Source: Candidatus Moraniibacteriota bacterium
GTDB taxonomy: Bacteria > Patescibacteriota > Minisyncoccia > Moranbacterales > GWC2-37-73
Assembly (NCBI GenBank): GCA_013336225.1
Contig: JAAXUC010000004.1
Coordinates: 1-32,420, forward strand
Reading direction: 5' to 3'
Length of the DNA: 32,420 bases
Shown: in pieces, positions 6,081 to 23,367 of the stretch
Layout of the letters: every line of letters begins with the position of its first letter
Position numbering within the stretch: position 1 is the first letter of the stretch
Position numbers and translations under genes: made by a program
The notes under the pieces: generated by a model
The model's database searches: none
What the model was told of the DNA's origin: nothing
The model's input: the letters and a program-made list of their open reading frames with translations, nothing else

Positions 6081-6088
6081 TAGAAAAG

Positions 6089-6432: not shown

Positions 6433-6461
6433 TTGCCAAATTGTGAAAATAAGGCTATAAT
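6433..6461 (+). promoter_or_regulatory. Promoter upstream of atpE
   Basis: TTGCCA (6433-6438), 17-bp spacer, TATAAT (6456-6461). It would restart transcription of atpE-F-H-A-G after the small-gene insertion. The family A palindrome (6476-6545) lies in the resulting leader. Confidence 0.65.
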
Positions 6462-6475
6462 AAAGCATAATTTGC

Positions 6476-6847
<372 letters not shown>

Positions 6848-6909
6848 TCTTTGATCCTGCCGCTTTCGAGCGACAGGAGAATAAGATCATTTATCAATTA
6901 GAAAATACT

Positions 6910-7401: not shown

Positions 7402-7523
7402 GAATTTCGAAGTATGAATTTTGAATTTCGAATGAAATCAGAATGAAAGAATGTTTAAAACATTAAAAATTTAGAAATTAAAAATTGATTCAAAATTCAA
7501 AATTGGAAATTCAAAATTATTTT
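7402..7523. repeat. AT-rich hairpin repeat, family B copy 2
   Basis: Fills the whole atpF-atpH gap. GAATTTTGAATTTCGAAT is mirrored by ATTGATTCAAAATTCAAAATT, and the core AAATCAGAATG...GAATGTTTAAAA is shared with 5934-6050. Confidence 0.75.
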
Positions 7524-7524
7524 T

Positions 7525-7926
7525 ATGAAAATAAGCATTAAACAATATTCCCAAACACTTTTTGATCTGACAGATGGGAAATCTGAGCAGGATGTTTTGG
7601 CTGTGCTTAAAAATTTTGCCGAACAACTCAAGCGAGATGGTCAATTGAAAAATGCTGGGAAAATTATGGAAAAATTCAGTGACTTGCATGATGCTGCTAA
7701 TGGAATGGTGGTGGCTGAAGTTGTTGTTTCCAAGGAAATCGCGACTGATGAACTTGAAAAAGTGAGAGAATTTGTTGCAAAAAAATATGCCGCCAAAGAG
7801 GTTGAACTGAAAATTGTGATTGATGAGAAAATTCAGGGAGGAATTGTTATAAGGGTTGGGGATGAAGTGATTGATGGAAGTGTTGCGATGCAGCTCAAGA
7901 GATTAAAAAATATTTTAAGTAAATAA
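7525..7926 (+). CDS. atpH: F0F1 ATP synthase subunit delta (short form)
   Basis: Joins the peripheral stalk to the top of F1. The N-terminal [14 protein letters not shown] and the C-terminal [20 protein letters not shown] followed by KRLKNIL are the two diagnostic delta/OSCP blocks. At 133 residues it is about 45 shorter than typical (about 175-180), the loss falling in the middle of the helical N-terminal domain. Both ends are intact, so this looks like a lineage-specific short form rather than a truncation. It lies 22 nt before atpA. Confidence 0.9.
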
Positions 7927-7948
7927 TTATCGTTTTAATAAAAAGAAT

Positions 7949-9451
7949 ATGAATAAAGATTTCATAGTTGAACAATTGAAAAAGCAGATTGAAAATTTCA
8001 CAACTGAAACCACCACGGAGAAAGTTGGCAGCGTGATTGAAATTGGGGATGGTGTGGCTCGCGTTTCTGGACTTTCAGATTTGATGGCCAGCGAAATGGT
8101 TGAATTTACCAATGGAGAAATCGGCGTGGCGCTTAATCTTGAAGAAGATCGCGTGGGTGTGATCGTGCTTGGAAATTATACTGCAATCAAAGAAGGTGAC
8201 GTTGTGAAGGCGACTGGCAAAGTTCTTTCAATTCCAGTGGCTGATGCCATGATTGGACGTGTGATTAATCCGCTTGGAATTCCAGTGGATGGCAAAGGAG
8301 ACATTGTGGCTGACAAGTTCTATCCAGTGGAAAAAATTGCGCCTGGTGTGATCACTCGAAAATCAGTGCATCAACCTGTGCAAACTGGGATTAAAGCTAT
8401 TGATGCGATGATTCCAATTGGACGCGGACAGCGCGAACTGATCATTGGTGATCGTCAGACTGGAAAGACTGCAATTGCAATTGACACCATCATCAATCAA
8501 AAAGGTCAAAACATGAAATGCATCTATGTGGCCATTGGTCAGAAGGAATCAAAAATTGCACGCATCTTGGGAGAATTGGAAAAACGCGGAGCCATGGAAT
8601 ATACCACCATCATTGTGGCGGGAGCTTCTGAATCTTCAGCGCTTTCATACATTTCCCCATATTCAGGTTGCGCTTTGGGAGAATATTTCATGGATAAAGG
8701 GGAAGACGTTTTGATTGTGTTTGATGATCTTTCTCGTCATGCTTGGGCATATCGTCAAATCTCCTTGATTTTGAAACGTCCGCCTGGACGCGAAGCTTAT
8801 CCTGGAGATGTTTTCTATTTGCATTCTCGTCTTTTGGAAAGAAGTGCGAAACTTAATGAAGATTTTGGTGGTGGTTCGATGACTGCACTTCCGATTATTG
8901 AAACTCAAGCTGGAGATGTTTCAGCGTACATTCCGACCAATGTGATTTCAATCACAGACGGACAAATCTTTTTGGAGTCAGATCTTTTCTATAAAGGAAT
9001 TCGTCCAGCGGTGAATGTGGGACTTTCAGTTTCTCGCGTGGGTGGTTCTGCTCAAATCAAAGCCATGAAAAAAGTGGCTGGAAAAATTCGTTTGGAGCTT
9101 GCCCAGTTTCGCGAGTTGGAAGCTTTTGCTCAATTCGGATCTGATCTTGATGAGCGAACTCGCGCGCAGATTGAACGCGGAAGAAGATCAGTTGAAATTC
9201 TCAAGCAAGGACAATATGAACCAATGTTGGTTGAGCATCAAGTTGCAATTCTCTATGCCTTGGCAAATGGATTTGTGGATGATGTGCCAGTGGAAGACGT
9301 CCGCTCCTGGGAAGCAGATTTTCACAAATATCTTGATTCGCAAGCCAAAGAAACAGTGGCTATGATTGCTGAAAAGAAAGAGCTTAGCGACGAAGTGATT
9401 GCCGCCTTGGAAAAAGCAATCAAAGAATTTAAAGAAGTTTATCAAAAGTAG
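7949..9451 (+). CDS. atpA: F0F1 ATP synthase subunit alpha
   Basis: Regulatory nucleotide-binding subunit of the F1 hexamer. The N-terminal barrel ([17 protein letters not shown]) is followed by the Walker A loop GDRQTGKT (167-174), Walker B-type [17 protein letters not shown], the family signature region [17 protein letters not shown] with the arginine finger, and the C-terminal helical domain. The 500-residue length is standard. No Shine-Dalgarno. Codon use matches the rest of the operon. Confidence 0.97.
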
Positions 9452-9590
9452 TGAAAGTCTAAAGTGTAAGGTCTAGGTACTAAAACAAATCCAAAGTAAA
9501 AAGTATAAACGGCTCGCATTTTAATTTAAACTTTAGAATTTAGATTTGAATTAGACTTTAAAATTTAGCATTTAGAATTTTATAAAACAG
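9452..9590. repeat. AT-rich imperfect hairpin repeat in the atpA-atpG gap
   Basis: Variants of AAGTCTAAAGT and TTAGAATTTAGATTTGAATT recur here in both orientations (AGTCTAAAG on the left, TTAGACTTT on the right). It is a different sequence family from those at 5934 and 7402 but the same type: a non-coding, AT-rich, self-complementary gap filler. Confidence 0.55.
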
Positions 9591-9592
9591 TT

Positions 9593-10552
9593 ATGGCTTC
9601 ATCATTAGATATAAAGCGTCGAATTCGTTCGATTAATAGCACTAAAAAAATCACTCGCGCAATGGAGATGGTTAGTGCTGCCAAAATGCGCAGAGCGGTG
9701 GCTAGCGTGCTTGGTATCCGTCCCTATGCTCACAGTGCCTGGAGTGTGCTGACTAATTTGGCGCGAGCTTTTGAGGCCTCACAGGGTAGTGGCTTCTTGG
9801 ATGTGCGCGAAGTTAAAAGCGTGCTGATGGTTGTGGTGACAAGTAGTCGCGGTCTTTGTGGATCATTTAACACGCAGATTGCCAAGAAGATTAAGGAGGA
9901 AATTTTGCATCCGGAAAAATTGAAGATCAATCGCATTGGAAAAAAGAAAATTGAATCCAATGTTAAAAATGAGGATTTGAAAATTGATTTCATCACGGTT
10001 GGCAAGAAGGGTGAAAACCTGGTGCGCAAGCTTGGCAAGGAAATTGTGGCGGCTTTCGCTGATGGGGGAGCTTTTGCAAAAGTGGTCGACATCAAACCGC
10101 TGTCTAAGATTGTAATGGATGACTATTTGGCTAAGAAATATGACAAGGTTGTGGTGATTTATACTGATTATGTTTCTGCAGTGAATCAGCAAACTCGCAT
10201 TCGTCAGATTTTGCCAATTTCCAAAATTGACATTGAAAAGCAAATTGCTGAGATAGATATGCTAGCTAAGGAATATGGATTGGAAAAACCGATGGTGGAA
10301 TATAAGGTTGAGCCGAGTCCGGCAGAGGTTTTGGAATTCATCATTCCGCGCTTGATTGAGATGCAACTTTTTCATGCAATTTTGGAATCGCAAGCTTCTG
10401 AGCAAAGTGCTCGCATGCTTGCCATGAGAAACGCCACGGATGCAGCGGGAGAGATGAGTGAGGATCTGACCTTGGCATATAATCAAATCAGGCAAGGAAA
10501 GATCACGCAGGAAATTGCAGAGATCAGCGCTGGTCGCGCTGCTCTGGAGTAG
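9593..10552 (+). CDS. atpG: F0F1 ATP synthase subunit gamma
   Basis: Central rotor shaft. The N-terminal helix motif IKRRIRSINSTKKITRAMEM and SSRGLCGSFN, and the C-terminal helix block ATDAAGEMSEDLTLAYNQIR with ITQEIAEISAGRAAL, are characteristic. At 319 residues it is about 30 longer than the common form (about 286). The excess lies around 105-130 (HPEKLKINRIGKKKIESNVK), in the Rossmann-like domain facing outward. It is the last gene before the minus-strand small-gene block; a REP-like hairpin follows 10 nt after the stop. Confidence 0.95.
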   Translation: MASSLDIKRRIRSINSTKKITRAMEMVSAAKMRRAVASVLGIRPYAHSAWSVLTNLARAFEASQGSGFLDVREVKSVLMVVVTSSRGLCGSFNTQIAKKIKEEILHPEKLKINRIGKKKIESNVKNEDLKIDFITVGKKGENLVRKLGKEIVAAFADGGAFAKVVDIKPLSKIVMDDYLAKKYDKVVVIYTDYVSAVNQQTRIRQILPISKIDIEKQIAEIDMLAKEYGLEKPMVEYKVEPSPAEVLEFIIPRLIEMQLFHAILESQASEQSARMLAMRNATDAAGEMSEDLTLAYNQIRQGKITQEIAEISAGRAALE

Positions 10553-10562
10553 AACTCATTGT

Positions 10563-10590
10563 GTCATTCCCGCGAAAGCGGGAATCCAGG
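10563..10590 (+). repeat. REP-like palindrome GTCATTCCCGC type
   Basis: ATTCCCGC-GAAA-GCGGGAAT forms a perfect 8-bp stem with a GNRA-type loop, flanked by GTC and CCAGG. This is a repeat type seen in many bacteria. It may also help terminate atpG transcripts although no T run follows. Confidence 0.8.
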
Positions 10591-10902
10591 ATTTAACTCG
10601 CTAAATTATATTTTCTGATTTAAATTTAGTTTGTACCTTTATTATTAAAATTATAGTTGAATTAACTTTTCTTTTAATAGAAAAGTTACAAAAGAAATCG
10701 CAACCTGATGAAGATACTGTGGCAAAAACTTCACTCTTCACTAAAATTTACACTGCGCGCCTTCGCTTGCTAGCGGGCGCTACGTTTCAAAATTTCTTAA
10801 CGCTCATTACTCGTTTTTCGCCTACGTACTTCATATGGTTGCAGGGGAATGCGGAAATGCAGAACGCAAATTCAAAAATGCAATTCAGAACTCAATTAAT
10901 AT

Positions 10903-10948
10903 GTCATCCTGAGCGAAGTTGTGTAATCACAACGAAGTCGAAGGATCT
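10903..10948 (+). repeat. REP-like element GTCATCCTGAGCGAAG type
   Basis: Starts GTCATCCTGAGCGAAG and ends CGAAGGATCT, with an inner TTGTG-TAAT-CACAA stem. It shares the GTCATCCTGA head and AGGATCT tail with the palindrome at 1969-1994. Confidence 0.75.
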
Positions 10949-10986
10949 GAGTTAAGTTCTGATAGTATCTTTGAAAAATTGGGAAA

Positions 10987-11034
10987 ATAAAAAAGCCTCA
11001 CCATACACCAATTGGTGCTTTGGCAAGGCTTTTG
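10987..11034 (-). terminator. Terminator of small gene 11056-11382
   Basis: Nested inverted repeats AGCCT/AGGCT around CACCAATTGGTG, with a run of T on the minus strand. A second 10-bp hairpin (GAAGTGAACA/TGTTCACTTC, 11038-11062) overlaps the stop codon. Confidence 0.7.
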
Positions 11035-11055
11035 CTTGAAGTGAACAATGTTTGT

Positions 11056-11382
11056 TCACTTCTCGATCAATATGACCAGGTTGGTCAATTGTTCGAGTGA
11101 TCCTTTTGCGATGACGTGGGTCATCTGACCCGGGTTATTTTGGCCATTGTCTTGAAAAGAGATGGAAAGAGGAAAACGAAGATTCAGGTTTTCTGCTTGT
11201 ATGATGCACAGGTCTTCGAATTTTCCCGTTATTTTTATCCACTCTTCAGTTCCAAGCCCTGGTTCGAGCATGACTGCGGAACATCTCCCTGATTCTGATG
11301 CGGCCCCTGCAAGAAAATCACATAGTCTTGAATAATTTTTACGGATTTCTTGCGGGATACGTTTGCTGTTAACAGTTTTCAT
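11056..11382 (-). CDS. Hypothetical protein, 108 aa
   Basis: Family not recognised. The start MKTVNSKRIPQEIRKNYSRL is set by a strong GGAGGAGG Shine-Dalgarno; the open frame upstream overlaps the promoter. The protein looks soluble and alpha/beta: a basic helical N-terminus, then a strand-rich half (WIKITGKFEDLCIIQAENL, LRFPLSISF) and a C-terminal helix EQLTNLVILIEK. Three cysteines have no metal spacing. First of four minus-strand small genes between atpG and atpD, each with its own promoter and terminator. It ends with TGA. Confidence 0.68.
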   Translation of the reverse strand: MKTVNSKRIPQEIRKNYSRLCDFLAGAASESGRCSAVMLEPGLGTEEWIKITGKFEDLCIIQAENLNLRFPLSISFQDNGQNNPGQMTHVIAKGSLEQLTNLVILIEK

Positions 11383-11408
11383 GGTCTTCCTCCTCCTGCT
11401 TAAGATAT

Positions 11409-11459
11409 GTTGAAACGATGTCAACCATATATAATACACCTAAATCATCATTTTGTCAA
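11409..11459 (-). promoter_or_regulatory. Sigma70 promoter with start-site inverted repeat
   Basis: TTGACA (11454-11459), 17 bp, TATTAT (11431-11436), 5 nt, then GTTGA-CATCGTT-TCAAC (11409-11425). The -35 and spacer are nearly identical to those of the promoter at 12237-12265. Confidence 0.82.
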
Positions 11460-11530
11460 TAGTTTGAAGTTCTTGTTCTGTTTATGGCTAGCTTGAGCCG
11501 TGAATAGATGAGTATTTTGAAAAAGAAAAA
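11429..11530 (-). repeat. Duplicated promoter/intergenic block, copy 1
   Basis: About 100 bp, roughly 80% identical by eye to 12234-12335. It runs from the -10 box through the -35, a less conserved middle, and GTGAATAGATGAGTATTTTG up to the terminator A-run of the next cassette. Confidence 0.75.
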
Positions 11531-11555
11531 CCCCGGACAATAATGTGTCAGGGGT
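11526..11555 (-). terminator. Terminator of small gene 11579-11785
   Basis: Minus-strand stem from ACCCCGGACA/TGTCAGGGGT (one mismatch) with a T5 run. Confidence 0.75.
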
Positions 11556-11578
11556 AATGGTAGAGATTCTGATTAAGG

Positions 11579-11785
11579 TTAACGTTTTTTGGATGTAATA
11601 ATCAGAATGATGATCGGTATGATGATCATGGCCATGACGATGCAGATTGAGATGATGAGCATGGTGGTGTCACCAGGATTTAGCTTTGCTCCATGGGGAT
11701 GAGCATGAAATGTCTCATTCATGTGAGCGTGGGCTAATGTAACCATGGAAAGAACTGTGAGGAGTGATGCAAGAAACTTTTTCAT
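11579..11785 (-). CDS. Small exported/membrane protein with His-rich segment, 68 aa
   Basis: A lysine start and hydrophobic run MKKFLASLLTVLSMVTLAHA resemble a signal peptide with cleavage after AHA. It is followed by a histidine-rich stretch HMNETFHAHPHG (four His in 12 residues) and a second hydrophobic helix TMLIISICIVMAMIIIPIII ending ITSKKR. The likely topology is an extracytoplasmic His-rich head with a single anchor, or a hairpin. The His cluster suggests metal binding, which is an inference. The start has an AGGAGG site 6 nt upstream; promoter at 11827-11856. No family recognised. Confidence 0.68.
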   Translation of the reverse strand: MKKFLASLLTVLSMVTLAHAHMNETFHAHPHGAKLNPGDTTMLIISICIVMAMIIIPIIILIITSKKR

Positions 11786-11826
11786 TTGAAACCTCCTGTG
11801 GACTTAGTTTGGGAATCGTTTATAGC

Positions 11827-11856
11827 AAGGTAGCATGAAATCATGTTTTAAGTCAA
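11827..11856 (-). promoter_or_regulatory. Promoter of small gene 11579-11785
   Basis: TTGACT (11851-11856), 18-bp spacer ending in an extended-10 TGC, TACCTT (11827-11832). Weaker -10 than its neighbours, and no start-site inverted repeat. Confidence 0.5.
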
Positions 11857-11885
11857 AAATGCAATTCAAAATTCAAGAAATTGAA

Positions 11886-11909
11886 TTTTGATAGTAGTTT
11901 TGAAGAATC
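11886..11909 (-). repeat. Recurrent post-terminator motif, copy 2
   Basis: TTTTGATAGTAGTTTTGAAG, next to the U-run of the 11957-12175 gene terminator. It matches the copy at 6057-6080. Confidence 0.65.
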
Positions 11910-11916
11910 AAGAAAG

Positions 11917-11949
11917 AAAAAACCACCACTCAAGTTTCTGAGTGATGGT
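11917..11949 (-). terminator. Terminator of small gene 11957-12175
   Basis: ACCACCACTCAAG-TTT-CTGAGTGATGGT with a T6 run on the minus strand. Nearly identical to the terminator at 12331-12362. Confidence 0.78.
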
Positions 11950-11956
11950 AGTATGC

Positions 11957-12175
11957 TTATTTGAAAGTGGGGAGCCCCTTTTCTTCAAGATATGCCAATC
12001 TTCTGGCAGCTTGCAGGAGTTTATCTTCGCCACTGAGAATAAAAAGTATCCCAGGGACGATGCAATCAACGTATTGTCCAGAAAAGTAATAAGTGTTGTT
12101 ACTTATCTGGAGGCCAAGATCGCTAGCGATCCGTTCTGTGGAAATTTTTGCAGTTGAATATTCAAACGCTGGCAT
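11957..12175 (-). CDS. Small hypothetical protein, 72 aa, paralog of 12372-12608
   Basis: Unknown family, but clearly a tandem paralog of the next gene: both share MP.F.Y, the block IA.DLGL.I...YY, a central VD..VPGI.FIL.GE..LLQ.AR, and a Y.K/E-rich end. The start is set by AGGAGG 8 nt before ATG (a GTG 9 nt earlier is less likely). It looks like a compact alpha/beta soluble protein. It is a single-gene unit with promoter at 12237-12265 and terminator at 11917-11949; the terminator is also shared with the paralog, so a whole cassette was duplicated. Confidence 0.7.
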   Translation of the reverse strand: MPAFEYSTAKISTERIASDLGLQISNNTYYFSGQYVDCIVPGILFILSGEDKLLQAARRLAYLEEKGLPTFK

Positions 12176-12204
12176 GTTGCACACCTCCTCCTATTTTTTA
12201 GTGC

Positions 12205-12265
12205 GTTGAAATGATTTAAAAATCAATCAACCTTATAGTATACATCTAAATCATCATTTTGTCAA
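12205..12265 (-). promoter_or_regulatory. Sigma70 promoter with start-site inverted repeat
   Basis: TTGACA (12260-12265), 17 bp, TATACT (12237-12242), 5 nt, then a longer inverted repeat GTTGA-TTGATTT...AAATCAT-TTCAAC (12205-12231). Confidence 0.82.
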
Positions 12266-12335
12266 CAGTTTGAGATTCTAATTCTGTTTGTGGCTCAAGA
12301 AAGCCGTGAATAGATGAGTATTTTGAAAAGAAAAA
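12234..12335 (-). repeat. Duplicated promoter/intergenic block, copy 2
   Basis: Counterpart of 11429-11530. The best conserved parts are the -35/spacer region and GCCGTGAATAGATGAGTATT. Confidence 0.75.
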
Positions 12336-12362
12336 ACCACCACTCAAGTTTTTGAGTGATGG
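12331..12362 (-). terminator. Terminator of small gene 12372-12608
   Basis: AAAAAACCACCACTCAAG with matching CTTGAGTG-type arm and ATGG, T6 on the minus strand. Paralogous to 11917-11949. Confidence 0.78.
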
Positions 12363-12371
12363 CAAGATGTT

Positions 12372-12608
12372 TCATCTTGATTTTGTTTTTGATTCGGGAC
12401 GCGGGAATATCTGCTCTTTGAGATAGGGCAATTCTCTGGCGACTTGCAAAAGAGTTGCTTCTCCATCAAGAATGAAAAATATTCCAGGCACAACATGATC
12501 GACGTGATTGTTGTTCAGGTAGTAAGCGCCATCGATTATCTTGAGTCCAAGGTCCTTGGCGATTGTTTCAGGAAAAACTTCCTTTTCTGGATATGAGAAT
12601 ATTGGCAT
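12372..12608 (-). CDS. Small hypothetical protein, 78 aa, paralog of 11957-12175
   Basis: Starts MPIFSYPEKEVFPETIAKDL after an AGGAGG site; an earlier TTG in frame is unlikely. The shared family blocks are IAKDLGLKI, AYYLN, VDHVVPGIFFILDGEATLLQ and ARELPYLKEQ. The C-terminus is longer and basic (PESKTKSR). It ends in TGA. First-transcribed of the block, adjacent to atpD but on the opposite strand. Function unknown; the conserved VPGI.FIL.GE core is the best handle for a search. Confidence 0.7.
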   Translation of the reverse strand: MPIFSYPEKEVFPETIAKDLGLKIIDGAYYLNNNHVDHVVPGIFFILDGEATLLQVARELPYLKEQIFPRPESKTKSR

Positions 12609-12659
12609 TTGCAACCTCCTTTTATATTTTTTTCTTGATTAGCATTGATATATTTATTG

Positions 12660-12687
12660 ATTATATATCTAAATTGGTAGAAGTAAA
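12660..12687 (-). promoter_or_regulatory. Promoter of small gene 12372-12608
   Basis: TTTACT (12682-12687), 16 bp, TATAAT (12660-12665). No clear start-site inverted repeat here. Confidence 0.6.
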
Positions 12688-12713
12688 GTAGTAGCGGTAT
12701 TAAGAATTGAAAT

Positions 12714-12775
12714 ATTAACGAATTATGAATTAACGAATTTTGAATTTCAAGCTGTTAATGTGTTAATCCGTTAAT
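12714..12775. repeat. ATTAACG palindromic repeat, family A copy 2
   Basis: ATTAACGAATT..GAATTAACGAATTTTGAAT mirrored by GTTAATGTGTTAATCCGTTAAT. Lies 52 bp upstream of atpD. Confidence 0.75.
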
Positions 12776-12815
12776 AAATAATTTTGAATTTAAATAACAA
12801 GTAAATAATTAGTAG

Positions 12816-14198
<1,383 letters not shown>

Positions 14199-14199
14199 A

Positions 14200-14348
14200 T
14201 TTTTTATTTCATAATTTGAAATTTAAAATTTTTAATTTAAAATCAAATCAAAATGATAAAATGTCAAAATTTTAAAATAGATTTGAAATTTAAAGATTAA
14301 AAATTTAAAAATTGATTTCAAATTTCAAATTAAAAATTTCAAATTAAT
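14200..14348. repeat. AT-rich hairpin repeat, family B-like copy 3
   Basis: Fills the atpD-atpC gap. TTTGAAATTTAAAATTTTTA is mirrored by AATTGATTTCAAATTTCAAA, with a core AAATCAAAATGATAAAATGT that resembles the core of the 5934 and 7402 copies. Confidence 0.65.
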
Positions 14349-14351
14349 TGT

Positions 14352-14789
14352 ATGTCTACAAAAATAAAGTTTAAGATAGTTACTCCTGAAAAAACAGTTT
14401 CTGAGCAAGAAGTTGATCAAGTAACCTTGCCTGTTTTGGATGGGCAAGTGACCATCTTGCCAGGACATCGCAGTTATATTGCAGCGCTTAAGGCTGGGGA
14501 AGTGATGCTGAAAGTTGGTGGCAAAGAAATTTTATTGGTGACTTCAGGTGGATTCATTGAGTTTAATGACAACACCTTGGTGGTGTTGGCTGACACCGCT
14601 GAAGCAGCTGAAGATATTGATTTGAAACGCGCTGAAGAAGCACGGAAACGCGCTGAAGATTTGAAGCATGAAAAAGTCACCATGAATGAAATGGAATATG
14701 CTCGGGTGGCAGCTGCCATTGAAAAGGAAATGGCGCGCGTGCGCGTGGCCAAAAAGCATCACACCAGGCATGGAATCAAGATTGACTAG
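14352..14789 (+). CDS. atpC: F0F1 ATP synthase subunit epsilon
   Basis: Central-stalk subunit that couples gamma to the c-ring and can inhibit ATP hydrolysis. The N-terminal beta-sandwich is visible (KIVTPEKTVSEQEVDQVTLP, DGQVTILPGH, VTSGGFIEFND), followed by a full C-terminal helical hairpin (KRAEEARKRAEDLKHEKVTM onward), so the regulatory arm is retained. At 145 residues it is typical. A terminator at 14813-14833 closes the atp locus. Confidence 0.95.
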   Translation: MSTKIKFKIVTPEKTVSEQEVDQVTLPVLDGQVTILPGHRSYIAALKAGEVMLKVGGKEILLVTSGGFIEFNDNTLVVLADTAEAAEDIDLKRAEEARKRAEDLKHEKVTMNEMEYARVAAAIEKEMARVRVAKKHHTRHGIKID

Positions 14790-14968: not shown

Positions 14969-15508
14969 ATGAAATTTCTTCAATTGCTTAAAATTTTGTT
15001 TTTGGGGCCGAAAGTCACTGAAAATGCTGAAAAAATCAAAGAAACAGACAAAGACGACTCTTTTGAAGCGGTGGGAAAGGAGCTTAAAGAAACCATTCAG
15101 CATCTGTATGGTGGGCGCTCATTGCGAATTCGTGCAGTTGATGCAGGATCTACCAATGCGGAAGAGATTGAATTTACCGCGCTAAATAACGCTTATTATG
15201 ACATTGACCGCTTCGGTCTGACTTTTGTGGCGTCTCCAAGGCACGCAGACATGCTGTTTGTGTCTGGACCAGTGACGCGCAATTTGGAAAAAGCTTTGCT
15301 GACAACCTATGAGGCTGCACCTAGTCCTTGCATTGTGGTGGCTCTGGGTGACGGTGCTATTGATGGCGGAATCTGGAAAGATTCCTATGCGGTGGTGGGT
15401 GGTGTGGAAAAGGTCATCCCTGTGCATATCAGAATCCCGGGAAATCCTCCTCGTCCAATTGAAATTTTGCGCGGGGTTCTTCATGCTCTTAATCAGAAAA
15501 ATTTTTAA
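14969..15508 (+). CDS. hyfI: NuoB/HyfI-like small subunit lacking all Fe-S cysteines
   Basis: Homolog of the 20-kDa small subunit of group 4 hydrogenases and complex I, which normally holds the [4Fe-4S] cluster next to the active site. The fold is well conserved: RIRAVDAGS, NAYYDIDRFGLTFVASPRHA, DMLFVSGPVTRNLEKAL, YAVVGGVEKVIPVHIRIPG and PPRPIEILRG. All four cluster ligands are replaced: the C-N-G-C motif reads T62-N-A-E65, the GDC cysteine is G129, and the PGCPP cysteine is N159. Only one Cys remains, in PSPC just upstream. The protein should be cluster-free. First gene of a five-gene operon, with no ferredoxin-type subunit. The N-terminal 50 residues are charged and variable. Confidence 0.88.
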   Translation: MKFLQLLKILFLGPKVTENAEKIKETDKDDSFEAVGKELKETIQHLYGGRSLRIRAVDAGSTNAEEIEFTALNNAYYDIDRFGLTFVASPRHADMLFVSGPVTRNLEKALLTTYEAAPSPCIVVALGDGAIDGGIWKDSYAVVGGVEKVIPVHIRIPGNPPRPIEILRGVLHALNQKNF

Positions 15509-15517
15509 TACAATTGT

Positions 15518-17521
15518 ATGACGATAGATTTCATCGCTTTCGGTTTTTTTGTTTATTTCCTGGGATTATTTTTTTCAGGAGTGTTTGCTTTGTTTGGAGG
15601 TCAATGGCGAAAATCCGCGCAACTTTTTGTGTTGGTAAACGTGCTTGGTTTTATTTTTGGAATCTTGTATCTTACTAATTTTGTTTCAAAAGAAATCGTG
15701 CTCGGCGATTGGGCTTGGCTTTTTCAATTTTCGCCAACCATCAATCTCTTGAGTGGCATCTTTTTCACGCTGATTGCTGGGGTCTCAGCTTTGGTGGGCG
15801 TGTATAGCATGCGCTATTTGGAACTGTATAGTGAAACTTATAATCCAGTGCTGACTCAATTTTTGACAGTGATTTTTGTGTTTGGAATGCAGGGTGTGTT
15901 TTTTGCCAACAACTCATTAGCCTTTTTGTTTTTTTGGGAAATGATGAGCATCGCTTCTTTTTTCTTGGTCATGGCTGATCGCAGTGAAAGTTCAGTTAAA
16001 GCTGCTTTTTTGTATTTCATTATGACGCACCTGGGAGCCTCTGCAATCTTGGGAGGATTTTTGATTTTGGGAAATGGCTTTTTGTTTTTAAATCTGGCTG
16101 ACATTGCAGTTGCTTCGCAAGGGTTGTCACCAGCGCTTTTGGGCTTGTCATTCGTTTTGTTTTTGTTTGGTTTTGGCAGCAAGGCTGGGCTAGTGCCTTT
16201 TCATGTGTGGCTGCCAGAGGCTCATCCTGAGGCGCCAAGCAACATTTCAGCTATGATGAGTGGCTTGATGCTGAAAGTGGCGGTGTATGGCTTTATTAAG
16301 GTGGCTTTTGCCTTGGTTGGTTTACCAGCCTGGGCAGCTTTGGTTGTCATCGGTCTTGGCTTGCTTTCGGCAATGGTGGGAGTTTTGTATGCCGTGATTG
16401 AAAGGGACATGAAACGAGCATTTGCATATAGCAGCATTGAAAACATGGGTATCATTTTTACAATTTTGGGAATTGCACTCTATCTTTTGACTCAAAGTTC
16501 AAATGATAATATCGTGCTGGCTTCAAATGTTTTGGTGGTGTTCGCAATTTTTCATGCCATCAATCATGCGCTTTTCAAAACTGCGCTTTTCTTGAGCAGT
16601 GGTGTGGTCATCAATCGTTTTCATTCCAAAAGGCTGGAAGTTATGGGTGGACTGGCCAAAATCATGCCATTTTTCTCCTTTGCTTTTCTGCTTGCAATTC
16701 TGGCTTCGATGCCACTGCCACCATTTGGAACATTCTATGGCGAATGGGGCTTGATCCAGAATGTCATCAACTTATTGCACAGTTCATTTTTGAATTCAAC
16801 TGCTATGTTGATAATTTTGGGCAGCATTGCTTTGATTGGTTTGATCAGTGGTTTGGCCATCTTTGCGATGGTTAAGATTTTTGGAATTTCCATGTTGGGA
16901 TTGGTGCGCGGCGATCATGTGGAAAAAAGATCTGAAAAAACTGACTATCTTCTCAGTGTTCCGATTATGATTCTTGGTTTTGGCGTGGTGGCTTTGGGAA
17001 TTTTTGCCAAATCAATCATCGCTTGGCTAAATGGATATGGAGAACTTTTGACAACCGCAGCTGCTGAGCAAGGCAATTTTGCTTTGAGCAATCTTTCTTC
17101 GGCAATGGTGTTTTTGGTGCCAGTGATTTCGTTGGCTTTGATTTATGTTTTGTATAAATTTTTCGATGGAAATATCACAGAGCGAAAATATCAAACTTGG
17201 GATTGTGGACAACCGATTGATGCTAGCATGCAATATTCCGCCACGGCTTTTTCTGGTCCGATTCGCTTTTTCTTTTTGCATTTGCTTGGCCGCGATAAGG
17301 TTTTGAAATCAAAAGCGGTGATTGAAACAAATCCTTGGATTCGTGAGTATGTTTTTTCCTTGTCATTCAGTTCTGTTTGGAAAGATAAATTGTATCAACC
17401 AATTGCAGCTATTTTGAATTTATTGGCTCAGCGACTGAAAGTCATCCAGGGTGGGCGCATTCAATATTATTTACTGTTTGTGTTGGGAACATTAATTGTC
17501 ACTTTAATTATGGTTTTATAG
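15518..17521 (+). CDS. hyfB: HyfB-like proton-translocating membrane subunit (NuoL/M, Mrp antiporter family)
   Basis: Polytopic membrane subunit of hydrogenase-4-type and complex-I-like assemblies, related to Mrp antiporter subunits and predicted to carry one ion channel. About 15 or more hydrophobic helices are seen. Conserved blocks include FFWEMMSIASFFLVM with its helix Glu, GSKAGLVPFHVWLPEAHPEA (diagnostic), MMSGLMLKVAVYGF with the channel Lys, and ERDMKRAFAYSSIENMGII. The C-terminal YQTWDCGQP is a HyfB hallmark. At 667 residues it is full-length. It lies 9 nt after the small-subunit gene. Confidence 0.92.
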   Translation: MTIDFIAFGFFVYFLGLFFSGVFALFGGQWRKSAQLFVLVNVLGFIFGILYLTNFVSKEIVLGDWAWLFQFSPTINLLSGIFFTLIAGVSALVGVYSMRYLELYSETYNPVLTQFLTVIFVFGMQGVFFANNSLAFLFFWEMMSIASFFLVMADRSESSVKAAFLYFIMTHLGASAILGGFLILGNGFLFLNLADIAVASQGLSPALLGLSFVLFLFGFGSKAGLVPFHVWLPEAHPEAPSNISAMMSGLMLKVAVYGFIKVAFALVGLPAWAALVVIGLGLLSAMVGVLYAVIERDMKRAFAYSSIENMGIIFTILGIALYLLTQSSNDNIVLASNVLVVFAIFHAINHALFKTALFLSSGVVINRFHSKRLEVMGGLAKIMPFFSFAFLLAILASMPLPPFGTFYGEWGLIQNVINLLHSSFLNSTAMLIILGSIALIGLISGLAIFAMVKIFGISMLGLVRGDHVEKRSEKTDYLLSVPIMILGFGVVALGIFAKSIIAWLNGYGELLTTAAAEQGNFALSNLSSAMVFLVPVISLALIYVLYKFFDGNITERKYQTWDCGQPIDASMQYSATAFSGPIRFFFLHLLGRDKVLKSKAVIETNPWIREYVFSLSFSSVWKDKLYQPIAAILNLLAQRLKVIQGGRIQYYLLFVLGTLIVTLIMVL

Positions 17522-17607
17522 TATGCGAAAAGCGCTCTACTAAAGCGCACATACGAAATGTTTGTAGATTCGTGATTAATTCGTAGTTTCGTATCGGTAA
17601 AAATTTT

Positions 17608-19218
17608 ATGAATTCAATTTTAGCCACATTATTACAAGGATTTTTTGTTTTAGCGATAGCACCATTTGCTGGGGGCATGGTTCGTTTTTGCAAGGCGCGT
17701 TTGCAAGGCAGGCATGGAGCTTCTCCATTTTTGCCATATTATACTTTAGCCACGCTGTTCAAAAAGCAGATGGTGATTTCGTCTGCAACTTCTTGGATTT
17801 TTAGGGCGGTGCCTTTTGTGGTGCTGTCCACCACAGTCTCCTTGGCTTTCATTTTGCCTTTGCTTTTCGTGGGCGGAAAATTGGCAAGTCTGAGCGACTT
17901 TTTGGTGGTGTCAGGAATTTTGATGATTGGTTCAATCTTCTTGGTGCTGGGCGGCCTTGATCCAGGCAGCGCTTTTGGCGGCATGGGTTCGAGTCGTGAA
18001 ATGACAATTGCTGCTTTAGTGGAACCAACAATCATCATGGTTTTTGCAGCCATGAGTTTTGTGGCCGGCAGCTTTGCAATTGATGGCATGGTGGGACAAT
18101 CTTTGATTTGGGCGCATCCATATTTGCTGCTTTCTATTTTTGCTTTTGCCTTGGTGACCTTGGCTGAAAATGCCAGATATCCAGTGGACAATCCAGCGAC
18201 TCATTTGGAACTGACCATGGTGCATGAAGCCATGATCTTGGAATATTCTGGACCATATTTGGCCATGCTAGAATATGCCAGCTCGCTCAAGCTGACAATT
18301 TTTGCCATTCTGCTTTCAAATTTCATTTTTCCATCCACTGTTGGAGTGGTTGCTAGTTTTGGATTTTTTTCTGCTTTAGTTGCTGGCATTGTGGCAATTT
18401 TTATTGCAATAATAAAAGTTGTGATTACAATGGCACTCTTGGCTTTGCTTGAATCAACCTTTGTGAAGATGCGTTTTTATCGCATGCAGGAATTTATGTC
18501 TATTGCTTTTTTCACTGCCATGTTTGGCATGTTGGTAGCATTATTTTCTTCAATGATAAATATCGAGTTTCAATATCATGCAATCTTCGCAGCTCTCTCC
18601 GTGTTTTTTGTGATACTTTTGTTTGGACGAGCTCGCGCGCAAGTGATGCTCAGATATTACGCGCTTTCATCGCTTAGCATTGCAGGTATCGCGTTGGGCT
18701 TGTCTTTCATTTTGCCAGCAGAGGAAAAGCATCATCTTTGGTTGTTTGCCTTGGTGACAGTTTTGATCAAAACGGTTCTTGTGCCAATTGTGATTAGATA
18801 TGCTCAAAGAAAGCATAAAGAATTCATCAGTTCTCCTTCATTTTTGCGTCCTGCTTCAAGTTATTTCGTGGCAGTGGTGATTTTGGGTGTGACCTTCTTT
18901 GCGATGCAGCACACGCCAATTATTGGCAAAGTTGAATTCGACACCATCTTGTATGCTTCAATTGCACTCATTGGTCTGGGACTTGCAACCATGATCGTGC
19001 ATCGAAACATTTTTTCTCAAATTCTGGGTTTGCTGATTATGGAAAATGGTTTGACTGTTTTCACTTTGGTGACAGTAAAGTCTTTGCCGCTGTTGATTGA
19101 GTTGGGTGTTTTTGTGATTATTGTGGCTAGCGCTTTTATTTTATCAATCCTGGGATCGCGCATCAGAGAATTTCATGGTTCTTCTGACACCGAAGATCTT
19201 CGATCATTAACTGAATAA
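17608..19218 (+). CDS. hyfC: HyfC-HyfE fusion membrane subunit (NuoH-like plus NuoK-like)
   Basis: Two normally separate membrane subunits in one 536-residue frame. Residues 1 to about 312 match HyfC/HycD (NuoH-like): QGRHGASPFLPYYTLATLFK, LGGLDPGSAFGGMGSSREM and AENARYPVDNPATHLELTMVH with its conserved acidic residues, the part that contacts the peripheral arm. From about 315 on it matches HyfE (NuoK-like): a hydrophobic stretch ending HRNIFSQILGLLIMENGLTV and the tail IRIREFHG-like GSRIREFHG. There is no stop or frameshift at the junction. The 86-nt gap before it contains a TATGCG-rich inverted repeat and a TTCGTAGTTTCGTA repeat. No Shine-Dalgarno. Confidence 0.88.
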   Translation: MNSILATLLQGFFVLAIAPFAGGMVRFCKARLQGRHGASPFLPYYTLATLFKKQMVISSATSWIFRAVPFVVLSTTVSLAFILPLLFVGGKLASLSDFLVVSGILMIGSIFLVLGGLDPGSAFGGMGSSREMTIAALVEPTIIMVFAAMSFVAGSFAIDGMVGQSLIWAHPYLLLSIFAFALVTLAENARYPVDNPATHLELTMVHEAMILEYSGPYLAMLEYASSLKLTIFAILLSNFIFPSTVGVVASFGFFSALVAGIVAIFIAIIKVVITMALLALLESTFVKMRFYRMQEFMSIAFFTAMFGMLVALFSSMINIEFQYHAIFAALSVFFVILLFGRARAQVMLRYYALSSLSIAGIALGLSFILPAEEKHHLWLFALVTVLIKTVLVPIVIRYAQRKHKEFISSPSFLRPASSYFVAVVILGVTFFAMQHTPIIGKVEFDTILYASIALIGLGLATMIVHRNIFSQILGLLIMENGLTVFTLVTVKSLPLLIELGVFVIIVASAFILSILGSRIREFHGSSDTEDLRSLTE

Positions 19219-19222
19219 CATT

Positions 19223-20698
19223 ATGACTCCAATTATTACAATTTTCATTATCCTTGCGGCGGCGGCCTTGGCACTTTTTTCCAAAGATGCCAAGCAAATT
19301 CGTCAAAGCACCTTAGCATTGTCCGTGCTTGGCGGCGCCTCTGTTTTTGCCATTGCGCTCCCAGTGCTTTTTCAAATGAGTCCAGCTTGGTTTGATGGTG
19401 TTTGGTTGGTGGACAATTTTTCTGCTTTGATGGTCTCTTTGGTCGCATTCTTATACATCAGCGCAGCCATTGTTAGTATCAGATATATTGGACATGAATA
19501 TGAAGAAAAGATCATAACCTTAGCTGACTTGAAATTATATTTCACACTCTTTCATATCTTTGCGCTTTGCATGATAATCACCGTGGTGGCAAACAATTCT
19601 TTGCTGCTTTGGATGGCTTTAGAGGGAACAACCTTGTCCTCAACATTCTTAGTTGGTCTGTATCGCCGAAAAACTTCAGCTGAAGCTGCTTGGAAATATA
19701 TCATCATTTGTTCAACTGGAATCAGCTTGGGCTTGCTGGGAATTTTGCTTTTTGGTTATGGTGCATCTTTAGGTGGGGTGACTGGGGGGGAGATTTTCAC
19801 CTTGACAGCCTTGGTTTCTAACGCGCATTTGATTTCCTTTGACATTGTAAGGTGGGCTTTCGTTTTCATTTTTGTGGGATTCGGCGCGAAACTTGGTTTG
19901 GTGCCAATGCATATTTGGCTCGCTGATGCGCACAGTAATGCGCCTTCTCCAATCTCAGGACTTTTCTCTGGAATCCTGCTAAATGTAGCGCTCTACGGAA
20001 TCATTCGTTTCAGATTTATCACAGATTTGGCGCTGGGCAGTAATGAGTGGACAGGGCATTTGTTTTTGTTTTTTGGATTTATTTCCATCATCGTGCCAGC
20101 CTTCATGATGTTGGTGCAAAGCAACTATAAACGCATGTTGGCGTATTCCAGCGTTGAGCATATGGGCTTGATCACTTTTGCTTTAGCACTTTCTCCTTTA
20201 GGAGCGATTGCAGCTGTGATTCATATGATTGGGCACACGCTTTCAAAATCCATGTTGTTTTTTGGCGCGGGAGAAATTTTGATAAACTATGAAACCACCA
20301 AGACAGAAAAGGTGAAAGGGCTCATGAAAAAGGCGCCATTTACAGCAACGCTGTTTTTGCTTGGAATTCTTTCAATCATTGCGCTGCCACCATCCATTTT
20401 GTTCGTAAGTGAATACACCATGTTTGCAGCTGCTTTTTTCTTGCATCCAGTTTTGTCAATTTTAATTTTGATAGCACTGAGCGTGATTGCCTATATGATG
20501 CTGCGCTCCACTATCGGCATGTTTTTTGTTGATGAAAAAAATGAGGCAGTGACAAAAAGAGAGACGTGGAACGTGGTGCACTGGATTATGACTTTGCAAT
20601 TGCTGTTGATTGTGGGACTGACATTTTTCTTTTCAACTGAAAATGGCCTCAGGTTCATTGATTTGATTGCTAAGAATATAATATATATTTCAAAATAA
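19223..20698 (+). CDS. hyfF: HyfF-like proton-translocating membrane subunit
   Basis: Second antiporter-like membrane subunit (NuoM/N-like), predicted to hold another ion channel. The diagnostic block GFGAKLGLVPMHIWLADAHS is present, followed by SGLFSGILLNVALYGIIRF, YKRMLAYSSVEHMGLITFAL and HMIGHTLSKSMLFFGAGEI with conserved His and Lys residues. Helix LLLWMALEGTTLSSTFLVGL carries the early conserved Glu. At 491 residues it is the normal size. It lies 4 nt after the fusion gene and 1 nt before hyfG, a tight operon. Confidence 0.92.
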   Translation: MTPIITIFIILAAAALALFSKDAKQIRQSTLALSVLGGASVFAIALPVLFQMSPAWFDGVWLVDNFSALMVSLVAFLYISAAIVSIRYIGHEYEEKIITLADLKLYFTLFHIFALCMIITVVANNSLLLWMALEGTTLSSTFLVGLYRRKTSAEAAWKYIIICSTGISLGLLGILLFGYGASLGGVTGGEIFTLTALVSNAHLISFDIVRWAFVFIFVGFGAKLGLVPMHIWLADAHSNAPSPISGLFSGILLNVALYGIIRFRFITDLALGSNEWTGHLFLFFGFISIIVPAFMMLVQSNYKRMLAYSSVEHMGLITFALALSPLGAIAAVIHMIGHTLSKSMLFFGAGEILINYETTKTEKVKGLMKKAPFTATLFLLGILSIIALPPSILFVSEYTMFAAAFFLHPVLSILILIALSVIAYMMLRSTIGMFFVDEKNEAVTKRETWNVVHWIMTLQLLLIVGLTFFFSTENGLRFIDLIAKNIIYISK

Positions 20699-20699
20699 T

Positions 20700-22262
20700 A
20701 TGACGACTATTCAAGAAATTCTGAAAAATTTTTCTGAAATAAGAGATATTCAACAAAAAGGCGACACCATTTTTGCGTCAATTTCGCGCGAAGATTTGGC
20801 GCGCATTTCAACAGCATTGGTCAATGAACATGGGCTTGTTTTATCTTTGTTATATGGAACTGATGACAGGAAGGAAAATGGAGCATTTGGCGTGCATGTC
20901 ATTTTTTCTCAAGACAAAAATGGTCAATGGTTCAAACTTTCAGCAGCTTTGCCAGAAAACGATCCAACATACCAATCACTGACAGCCACGATTATGGCTG
21001 CGCATTGGTATGAAAGATATGTGCAGGACATGTTTGGTGTGGTGGCTGTTGGTCATCCTGATCCGCGCAGATTGGTGCATCATGAAAACATTCCACTTGG
21101 CACTCATCCACTGCGCAAGGATTTTGCTTGGAACGCTAAATTGGAAAAAGCCAATGTGCTATATCCCATGCATCACATTAAGGGTGAAGGAATTTTTGAA
21201 ATTCCAGTGGGACCGATTCATGCTGGCATAATCGAGCCTGGGCATTTTCGTTTCAATGTGGCCGGCGAAAGAATTCTGACTTTGGAAGGAAAATTGTTTT
21301 TCACTCATAAGGGAGTGGAAAAATTGCTGGAAGGAAAAACTCCTAAAGCGGCACTGCCTTTCATTGAGGGAATTTCCGGCGACATGGCAGCTTCGCATGC
21401 TTTGGCTTATGTGCAAGCAGTGGAAACCATTGCAGCTTGCAAGGTTCCTGAGCGCGCTCAGATGCTCCGGGCTCTTGTTTGCGAGCTTGAGCGCCTAACA
21501 ATGCACATTCATGACCTGGCTAATATTGGAGGCATGGGAACAGGCTATTCTTTTATTGCAGCCAATGGATTTCGCATTAAAGAAAGAATGATGCGCCTTT
21601 CCGATGTCATTTTTGGAAATCGTTTTTGGAAAGACATGATCGTATTGGGGGGAGTTGCCAAGGATATTGATGATGTCAGACTTGAAAAAATTCTTTCCAT
21701 TGCTAAAGCTGCGCACAGTGAAATGCTGAAAATTGTGACACAGGCGTTGGCCTCAGATGGCTTTCTTGATCGTTTGCAAACCACTGGAGTGCTCCCGCTT
21801 GAAGTGGCTAAAGCTTTTGGCGCCTTGGGAATTGCTGCTCGTGGCAGCGGCCTGGATCGAGATGTTCGTCGCGATCACGCTTATGGTGCATATCAGAAAT
21901 TTCCATTTTCAGTGGTGATCAAGAAGAAAGGCGATGTGCACTCGCGCTATTTGGTTCGCATTGAGGAAATGCAGGAAACAATCAATTTGATTGAGAAATT
22001 GATAGGCAACATGGCAAAGGGAGAAATATCAACAAACATTGATATTAAAGATGGCTTTGCCGTCGGCGCAGTGGAAAGCTGGAGGGGTGAAATTTTACTG
22101 GCGTTGGAAATTAAAAATGGTGCGATCGAGCGCTGTTTTCCTCGTGATCCATCATTTTGCAATTGGGCACTTTTTGGAATCATGGGGCCAGGGAATATTG
22201 TGCCTGATTTTCCACTCATCAATAAAAGTTTGAATTTATCATATTCCGGAACTGATTTATAG
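20700..22262 (+). CDS. hyfG: HyfG/HycE-like large subunit (NuoC-NuoD fusion) lacking [NiFe] cysteines
   Basis: Homolog of the group 4 hydrogenase large subunit. Residues 1 to about 150 are the 30-kDa NuoC-like domain with YERYVQDMFGVVAVGHPDPR and HPLRKDF. The rest is the 49-kDa NuoD-like domain. The nickel-binding L1 motif RxCGxC reads E223-G-I-S-G-D-M, with Ser226 and Met229 in place of the two Cys. The C-terminal DPCxxC reads D483-P-S-F-C-N-W, with Ser485 and Asn488 in place of Cys. The retained C-terminal tail IVPDFPLINKSLNLSYSG is typical of cysteine-less energy-converting hydrogenase-related (Ehr) proteins. It therefore cannot bind a standard NiFe centre. Last gene of the operon. Confidence 0.9.
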   Translation: MTTIQEILKNFSEIRDIQQKGDTIFASISREDLARISTALVNEHGLVLSLLYGTDDRKENGAFGVHVIFSQDKNGQWFKLSAALPENDPTYQSLTATIMAAHWYERYVQDMFGVVAVGHPDPRRLVHHENIPLGTHPLRKDFAWNAKLEKANVLYPMHHIKGEGIFEIPVGPIHAGIIEPGHFRFNVAGERILTLEGKLFFTHKGVEKLLEGKTPKAALPFIEGISGDMAASHALAYVQAVETIAACKVPERAQMLRALVCELERLTMHIHDLANIGGMGTGYSFIAANGFRIKERMMRLSDVIFGNRFWKDMIVLGGVAKDIDDVRLEKILSIAKAAHSEMLKIVTQALASDGFLDRLQTTGVLPLEVAKAFGALGIAARGSGLDRDVRRDHAYGAYQKFPFSVVIKKKGDVHSRYLVRIEEMQETINLIEKLIGNMAKGEISTNIDIKDGFAVGAVESWRGEILLALEIKNGAIERCFPRDPSFCNWALFGIMGPGNIVPDFPLINKSLNLSYSGTDL

Positions 22263-22269: not shown

Positions 22270-22298
22270 TTGACTTGAATAGATATTGCGAGTAGAAT
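22270..22298 (+). promoter_or_regulatory. Promoter of the carbonic-anhydrase-like gene
   Basis: TTGACT (22270-22275), 17 bp, TAGAAT (22293-22298), starting 8 nt after the hyfG stop. Confidence 0.72.
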
Positions 22299-22372
22299 TA
22301 ATTTTTGCATGTAGCGAATAGGTGAAAAGTTTTTTAAAAAAATGATATCAAATAAAAAAGGAGGAAGCGAAC

Positions 22373-23329
22373 ATGAGTTCAAGAAAGTTAAGTAGTTTGG
22401 ATGGCACAATTTTAAGTACGGTGCCATTTCGTTTTAAGGGTGTGTCTGGTTGTGATGCTATGGTTGCGATGCCAATCAGTTACAATTTTGCAAAGGAAGG
22501 ACTTGATTTTGTGGAAAAATGTTTGGGTATACAGGCGTTTGACCTTTTCGGGATTCCCAGTATTTCCAAACGCATTGAAAACAGGAGTGAAACTGCAATA
22601 GGCACACTTAAGCTTGCGATTGAAAAGCATAATGCGAAAGAGATTGTGCTTATGGAGCATGTTGACTTTCACGACAGTGGCAAGTCTTCAAGGTTTAGAA
22701 ATAAGATTGAGGAGGATTATTTTCACAAGAAGGGCTTGGTTGATTGTAAGCTCAACATTCTTGAATCTTTTCCGCACGTCACCGTCAGGCTCATATATGC
22801 TAGGCTCAATGGTTTGAGAATAGCTGAATATGAGCCAGGAACAAGGATATTATTCTCGGAAATATTTGAAAATGCCGAAGAGATATTCATGGCTAATATG
22901 CCATACAGATTTAAGGATGAAATTTACTGTGACGGTGCTATTGTTGCTTGTTTGGATTTTCGTTTCAGGCGAGAGACTCGTTCTTGCGCTCGTGAATCAC
23001 TGAACATTCCAGTTTTTGATCTGATTGGTTTGCCAGGCTCATCTAAACGCCTGTTGGAAAACAGTGAAACTGGCTGGAAAGGTATCGATGTTGCATATAC
23101 CAAGCATGGTTGCAAGAAAATTGTCTTGTTTCATCATTCTGACTGTGCTGCATATGGTGGGCTCAAGAAATTCGATGGCGATCATATTGCTGAAGAATCA
23201 ATGCATCGTGGCGAACTGCGAAAGCTCAAAAAAAGAATCACGGATAAATATCCAGATGTGGAAGTCCTAATGGTTTATGCCAGAGTACTCGGAGATTATG
23301 AGCAAATACAATTTGTTTTATTTTCCTAA
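22373..23329 (+). CDS. Tandem-duplicated beta-carbonic-anhydrase-like protein
   Basis: The 318-residue protein is two copies of one domain (about 27-150 and about 187-318): both contain CD..(I/V)A, FDL.G.P..SKR..E.SET, the helix AIEKH/VAYTKHG, KEIVL/KKIVL and YAR. Domain 2 has the beta-CA zinc pattern C193-x-D195-x-R197 with H255-x-x-C258. Domain 1 has lost it (MPISY and HVDF at the same places). Beta-CAs act as dimers, so this may be a covalent pseudo-dimer with one live site. CO2 hydration is the family role but activity is unproven. A strong AAGGAGG Shine-Dalgarno and own promoter and terminator distinguish it from the operon upstream. Confidence 0.75.
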   Translation: MSSRKLSSLDGTILSTVPFRFKGVSGCDAMVAMPISYNFAKEGLDFVEKCLGIQAFDLFGIPSISKRIENRSETAIGTLKLAIEKHNAKEIVLMEHVDFHDSGKSSRFRNKIEEDYFHKKGLVDCKLNILESFPHVTVRLIYARLNGLRIAEYEPGTRILFSEIFENAEEIFMANMPYRFKDEIYCDGAIVACLDFRFRRETRSCARESLNIPVFDLIGLPGSSKRLLENSETGWKGIDVAYTKHGCKKIVLFHHSDCAAYGGLKKFDGDHIAEESMHRGELRKLKKRITDKYPDVEVLMVYARVLGDYEQIQFVLFS

Positions 23330-23335
23330 TTTAAA

Positions 23336-23367
23336 GGCGCAGTCAATAATTTGACTGCGCCTTTTTT
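23336..23367 (+). terminator. Terminator of the carbonic-anhydrase-like gene
   Basis: GGCGCAGTCAA-TAAT-TTGACTGCGCC followed by TTTTTT; perfect 11-bp stem. Confidence 0.92.

Follow-up and report, generated by a model that had tools for sequence, protein, structure and literature searches.

A tandem carbonic-anhydrase-like protein with one set of predicted zinc ligands at an ATP synthase locus of Candidatus Moraniibacteriota

In a genome of Candidatus Moraniibacteriota bacterium (assembly GCA_013336225.1), a gene encoding two beta-carbonic-anhydrase-like domains, only the second of which retains the active-site residues, lies downstream of the genes for an F-type ATP synthase and a complex-I-like module. 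Its product is, on balance, probably a beta-carbonic anhydrase (CA) in which two covalently joined domains form a pseudodimer with one active site and which serves the exchange of CO2, bicarbonate and protons at an energy-converting membrane locus. Computation on the window, i.e., the whole stretch of 32,420 nucleotides that was analysed, and on related genomes shows paired domains, an active-site motif intact in one of them, a predicted beta-CA fold, a linkage that recurs, and members of other CA families in the corresponding position. Of the clues to the function of the tandem protein, the strongest is its setting beside ATP synthase and complex-I-like genes, which the initial annotation had passed over, and the recurrence of CAs of different kinds at this energy locus suggests that CO2/bicarbonate chemistry is tied to the energy machinery.

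Two domains and one set of predicted zinc ligands

The gene, the parts of its product and the signals around it are as follows.

22373..23329, + strand: tandem Pro_CA_2/beta-CA-like protein of 318 aa (ORF call, Pfam, half-versus-half alignment, predicted model)
22409..22822, + strand: domain 1, residues 13–150, beta-CA-like fold with P34/S36/N38/H96/F99 and without zinc cysteines
22886..23326, + strand: domain 2, residues 172–318, Pro_CA_2 with the CxDxR and HxxC motifs intact
22949..22963, + strand: codons C193 to R197, first zinc ligand and Asp-Arg dyad
23135..23146, + strand: codons H255 to C258, second and third zinc ligands
22270..22298, + strand: sigma-70-like match TTGACT-17-TAGAAT, 10 of 12 positions, in a count not above chance
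22359..22364, + strand: Shine-Dalgarno AGGAGG, read from the sequence
23333..23364, + strand: intrinsic terminator, a 14-pair stem-loop followed by a T tract

The open reading frame begins with an ATG at 22373, and its stop codon ends at 23329. The two halves of the product align almost end to end, as the initial annotation had stated: residues 13–147 compared with 172–306 give a Smith-Waterman score of 198, against a mean of 29.5 (sd 5.0) and a maximum of 53 for 1000 shuffles of the second half, by which chance similarity between the halves is ruled out. The same annotation placed the active-site set C193, D195, R197, H255 and C258 in domain 2 only, and these positions were confirmed; their counterparts in domain 1 are P34, S36, N38, H96 and F99. 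The motifs of beta-class CAs, CxDxR plus HxxC, are thus present in domain 2 and absent from domain 1. In Pfam, domain 2 matches Pro_CA_2 (PF20393) over residues 189–310 with 61.5 bits against a cut-off of 30, and the canonical Pro_CA family (PF00484) stays below its cut-off (19.7 versus 25.7 bits), grazing domain 1 only.

The strong Shine-Dalgarno sequence and the perfect terminator described earlier are both present. The gene had also been credited with a promoter of its own; a sigma-70-like match does exist upstream, but the stretch holds three such matches versus 4.2 (sd 2.0) expected from shuffles. The terminator scan reported no terminator in the gap of about 110 bases between the upstream gene and the tandem CA gene, so joint transcription of the two is possible.

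An AlphaFold2 model built on 24 aligned sequences (mean pLDDT 92.5, pTM 0.89) has as its top two Foldseek matches 1ddz, the covalent tandem beta-CA of Porphyridium, and then the CsoSCA structure 2fgy. In VIA-align the model matches 1ddz_A with Z 22.9 over 280 residues, both halves being aligned, and 2fgy with Z 14.6 over 231 residues; the three CsoSCA chains compared (2fgy, 9g4t and 8thm) give Z 14.6, 13.6 and 13.6, again spanning both halves. Single-domain beta-CAs reach Z of about 10–12 against the model, and unrelated folds begin at Z 6.5. Since these matches extend across both halves, the model predicts an arrangement of the halves like that of the subunits in a beta-CA dimer, and the overlay proposed in the initial annotation brings the model onto covalent beta-CA pseudodimers over nearly its whole length. 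By sequence, a search of the PDB with the single protein gave a best E of 1.4, to a protein other than a CA, and a profile search matched no CA there below E 0.1. Among viral contigs 11 pattern matches were obtained, none of them a relative, and the viral structure library contained no convincing match.

Tandem forms elsewhere in Patescibacteria, for which a search had been suggested, were found. Of 93 genomes from the same order, 20 have a Pro_CA_2 match, tandem in six and single-domain in 14; with two further tandems from a wider scan (L151 and L155), eight were compared, originating from Moranbacteria-like genomes and one Falkowbacteria MAG, and including one from the same genus as the genome of the window (G002). 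A class-wide search of 383 genomes (E up to 1e-20) matched seven, all from the same order. In domain 2, C193, R197, H255 and C258 are kept in all eight tandems and D195 in seven, with E in its place in L149. In domain 1, the counterparts of both zinc cysteines are lost in all eight, and that of the histidine is still present in four. Domain 1 is nevertheless under constraint comparable to that of domain 2, as indicated by mean pairwise identities of 34.6% and 37.6%, respectively (28 pairs), and the possibility that it is a dying, decaying copy was rejected because its conservation is so close. It also has conserved residues of its own: D57, H86 and E114 in all eight proteins, H100 and H118 in at least seven. 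In the tree, the domain-1 sequences form one group (96/90), as do the single-domain proteins (97/90), and the domain-2 sequences group weakly (76/51); these groupings fit one fusion and one loss of the site.

The ATP synthase locus and its carbonic anhydrases

In the window the ATP synthase operon comes first, then the complex-I-like module, and then the tandem CA gene.

4783..14789, + strand: F-type ATP synthase operon, ATPase_gene1/atpI followed by the genes for a, c, b, delta, alpha, gamma, beta and epsilon
14969..22262, + strand: complex-I/hydrogenase-4-like module with NuoB-, HyfB-, HyfC/E-, HyfF- and NuoCD-like subunits

All nine proteins of the ATP synthase operon score above their Pfam cut-offs, and the gene order is the same in relatives. 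In the module of the window, alignment with HycE and HycG shows other residues at the positions of the NiFe and Fe-S cysteines; S514 and G517 of the NuoCD-like protein occupy the positions of the C-terminal NiFe cysteines. In 18 related modules, where the NiFe check covered the N-terminal cysteine pair, this pair is absent throughout, and cysteine is missing from the Fe-S positions checked, apart from a single one each in G085 and G052, G031 being only partly readable. All 18 modules keep the antiporter residues E-K-K-K of the HyfB-like subunit; in the HyfF-like subunit the E and the first and last K are likewise kept in all 18. With its redox ligands lost and its ion-path residues kept, the module looks, as judged from sequence, like an ion translocator without redox chemistry.

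A few other features of the window are also worth recording. Two small, mutually similar minus-strand ORFs (11957–12184 and 12372–12614) lie inside the operon between atpG and atpD. The DUF4349 protein encoded at 23422–24417 recurs in relatives between the CA, or its stand-in, and parAB. Two adjacent ORFs at 28368–31300 have a long, nearly identical N-terminal part in common; together with 27085–28308 they are presumably akin to surface proteins of the cohesin/dockerin type.

Within the order, 29 of the 93 genomes have a Pro_CA_2, CsoSCA-like or gamma-CA gene no further than 2.5 kb from atpC or the module: Pro_CA_2 in 20, a CsoSCA-like gene in the absence of Pro_CA_2 in six, and gamma-CA in the absence of either in three. 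In this survey nine genomes lacked an atpC match, G016 was unreadable at the locus, and an atpC edge fragment in G087 was left out. The 14 single-domain Pro_CA_2 relatives lie behind atpC. In the window's own family 14 of 18 genomes carry a CA-family gene at the locus; the exceptions are G007, with a SulP transporter alone, G006 and G013, with neither module nor CA, and G016, cut by the contig end. Genomes were counted as having the module by their NuoCD-like homologues, found in 20 of 93. In 12 of these 20 a CA-family gene, from one of three sequence families, is the direct neighbour of the module, five have no adjoining CA (G066, G031, G074, G052 and G080), two have only the X192 protein described below (G022 and G035), and in G016 the contig ends. 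Over the 93 genomes the presence of Pro_CA_2 and that of the module are uncorrelated, four genomes sharing both where 4.3 are expected (20 × 20/93).

Of the CsoSCA-like proteins, those of L047 and L072 score above the PF20686 cut-off, and those of L064 and L068 score below it and were placed by similarity to the former two. The gamma-CA proteins give strong matches to CcmM and carbonic anhydrase models, below the equivalog cut-offs. Genes of these families are also encountered outside the locus, namely CsoSCA-like genes in five of 12 genomes, gamma-CA in one of six, and a sub-cut-off Pro_CA_2 in G008. CsoSCA-like genes (L047:1116-2147, L072:6827-7849, L064:3293-4372) stand in Patescibacteria genomes without RuBisCO and are therefore apparently outside any carboxysome.

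Transporter genes of the SulP/STAS type, a family that includes the bicarbonate transporter BicA, lie directly behind atpC in four loci (L049:4774-6396, L085:1114-2742, L083:707-2356 and L116:620-2266), twice with a CA-family gene next; in G002 and G012 a SulP gene is located between atpC and CA genes of different families. Yet another group, X192 (L154:8563-9075, L167:8522-9109, L168:8532-9074, L223:7302-7877 and L073:2-580), adjoins atpC, Pro_CA_2 or the module; its conserved C.D and H..C motifs resemble a zinc site, it matched no family, and its predicted structure, with a pLDDT of 42.6, is too uncertain to interpret. Additionally, L048:8285-9076 encodes a protein of 263 aa (X263) with CSDGR and HEDC motifs between atpC and a tandem CA, with no Pfam or NCBIfam match. 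As neither family nor fold supports their identity as CAs, X192 and X263 were left out of the CA-family counts.

A wider scan with one genome per species yielded 213 relatives, of which the best 80 were kept. Of the 80 kept Pro_CA_2 loci, 49 have an ATP synthase gene no more than 2 kb away, a fraction biased upwards because ATP-linked members contributed to the scan patterns; among the 58 kept loci flanked by 2 kb or more of DNA on each side, the count is 39. Among the 49 weaker, more distant loci taken alone, 24 are within 2 kb of an ATP synthase gene; for a randomly chosen gene we would expect, very roughly, such proximity in 1–2% of cases. In 31 of the 80 kept loci the Pro_CA_2 gene directly follows atpC on the same strand, at no more than 500 bases. 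Other arrangements include a position between atpA and atpG inside the operon (L222), before atpB (L201), divergent from atpB (L196, L214 and L217), and opposite atpC (L213). The names of the MAGs with linked loci include Moran-, Falkow-, Uhr-, Magasanik-, Doudna-, Woese-, Davies- and Berkelbacteria. In the accessible text of the open-licence literature no description was found of a linkage between CA and ATP synthase in Patescibacteria, Parcubacteria or CPR, and the accessible part of PMC11974145 contains nothing on linkage of a CA with the ATP synthase or the module.

Possible roles of the tandem protein

The tandem protein is the only CA detected in the host genome (G000). Canonical beta-CA (PF00484) was found above cut-off in none of the 93 genomes (9 of 14 controls positive), and G000 has no match to CsoSCA-like or gamma-CA families. 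RuBisCO was likewise found in none of the 93 genomes (5 of 14 controls positive), and a role in RuBisCO-linked CO2 concentration was rejected on this ground. Searches of G000 detected neither CarB (14 of 14 controls positive) nor biotin carboxylase (13 of 14 controls positive), and pyrimidine/arginine synthesis and biotin-dependent carboxylation were rejected as reasons for a CA in this genome. As far as these three enzymes are concerned, the common biosynthetic reasons for a CA are missing in the host.

We infer zinc binding, catalytic activity, a role in proton or pH balance, the direction of that role and any docking of the protein. In the favoured reading, domain 2 would carry the zinc site, and domain 1, having lost its own, would be retained for its structural contribution, completing the dimer interface and perhaps also docking the enzyme. 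The protein would be the CA of an energy locus composed of the F1Fo ATP synthase and a redox-dead complex-I-like ion translocator; by catalysing CO2 + H2O <-> HCO3- + H+ it would supply or remove protons and bicarbonate at the cytoplasmic face. The occurrence of several CA families at the locus argues for a shared reaction and against one special docking surface. The initial annotation had left the choice between an asymmetric enzyme and a sensor; the covalent pair with one dead half stands, and of the two options the asymmetric enzyme is the better one, with precedents in CsoSCA and DabA.

A more specific proposal, namely that the tandem protein docks on the complex-I-like module and works as a vectorial CA, ion flow driving CO2 hydration or its reverse, is doubtful, although it draws on a known case: according to the accessible part of PMC13144422, a beta-CA-like protein with two domains and one site is paired in DAB2 with a NuoL-like subunit, and electron transfer is not required. 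The tandem gene lies directly after the module in G000, G017, G021, G085 and L155, and within the order the module is a neighbour of four of six tandems versus none of 14 single-domain genes (one-sided Fisher 0.003, uncorrected for kinship), an enrichment that may reflect a single event, the tandems being one group. On the other hand, tandems with no module next door exist (G002, G072 and L151), and the gamma-CA and CsoSCA-like proteins that also fill the slot are hard to square with one specific docking interface. The membrane-inserting finger and the long N-terminal helical domain described for DabA in the available text have no counterpart in the 318-aa model, and the ion-pair motifs that DabB is there said to lack correspond to ion-path residues kept by the HyfB- and HyfF-like subunits here, which belong to a larger complex-I-like module.

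It is also unlikely that the protein is an ordinary housekeeping CA whose gene hitch-hikes behind the ATP synthase operon and so gains steady expression. Such operons are strongly expressed, and SulP, DUF4349 and other genes are likewise found behind atpC; this explanation, however, accounts poorly for the varied arrangements around ATP synthase genes, for several CA families at the same place, and for a host without RuBisCO, CarB or biotin carboxylase. A CO2/bicarbonate or pH sensor that uses the dead half for signalling and regulates the ATP synthase or the module would suit the conservation of domain 1 without zinc cysteines and with its own set of conserved residues, but it is improbable given that domain 2 retains the whole catalytic set and that single-domain relatives, which have no dead half, occupy the same position behind atpC. 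We give hardly any credence to an enzyme of beta-CA fold that acts on a different substrate, for instance COS or CS2, whose hydrolases 3vqj and 3ten stand alongside CAs among the weak PDB profile matches (E 0.35 and 1.1), since the alternative occupants of the slot, CsoSCA-like and gamma-CA, share CO2/HCO3- as common ground.

The favoured reading, a one-site CA at an energy locus, can be extended, as a long shot, to the tandem CA, the redox-dead module and the ATP synthase forming one machine that exchanges a CO2/HCO3- disequilibrium with a proton or sodium gradient and involves no electron transfer, i.e., a larger functional analogue of DAB2, in which CA families of different ancestry (beta, CsoSCA-like and gamma) are interchangeable in one seat. 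If true, the machine could also run towards ion pumping, and a fermentative episymbiont would gain or balance proton-motive force by bicarbonate dehydration and loss of CO2. The locus bears on the question of how Patescibacteria energise their membrane without a recognisable respiratory chain, and a CA beside the ATP synthase and a redox-dead translocator gives it a concrete form, namely whether the proton gradient is fed, balanced or sensed through CO2/HCO3- chemistry.

Comparison with known systems

The closest family is Pro_CA_2 (PF20393), small single-domain putative CAs, which domain 2 resembles in its above-cut-off match and in CxDxR and HxxC; the tandem protein differs in the fusion to a second copy without zinc cysteines. 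Small F-clade beta-CAs carrying these motifs can be active, according to the accessible text of PMC6690855, and Pro_CA_2 is likened to them by the two shared motifs. Among structures the best match is 1ddz (Z 22.9, both halves). The Porphyridium enzyme binds zinc in both halves, unlike the tandem protein, whose domain 1 has P34/H96/F99 instead of C/H/C.

The hydrogenase-4-like complexes, presumably those called energy-converting hydrogenase-related, share with the module the subunit set HyfB, HyfC/E, HyfF, NuoCD and NuoB-like; the module differs in the lost NiFe and Fe-S ligand positions and in having CA and ATP synthase genes as neighbours.

The tandem CA gave no match to the DabA family profile of Pfam, which we take to be PF10070, at E up to 1. 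As far as the accessible text of PMC13144422 describes it, DabA has two beta-CA-like domains with broken symmetry and one active site, and the tandem protein is similar in this respect and in the gene for a NuoL-like subunit nearby; its length, however, is 318 aa versus over 800 for DabA. CsoSCA is described in the accessible part of PMC12918739 as a single-chain pseudodimer of two beta-CA-like domains with one active site, an organisation that the model and the ligand residues predict for the tandem protein as well. The order of the halves is reversed, however, the dead half coming first in the tandem CA, which has no PF20686 or TIGR02701 match (E up to 1) and a host without RuBisCO. The tandem CA appears to be a further, independent instance, next to CsoSCA and DabA, of two beta-CA domains with a single active site.
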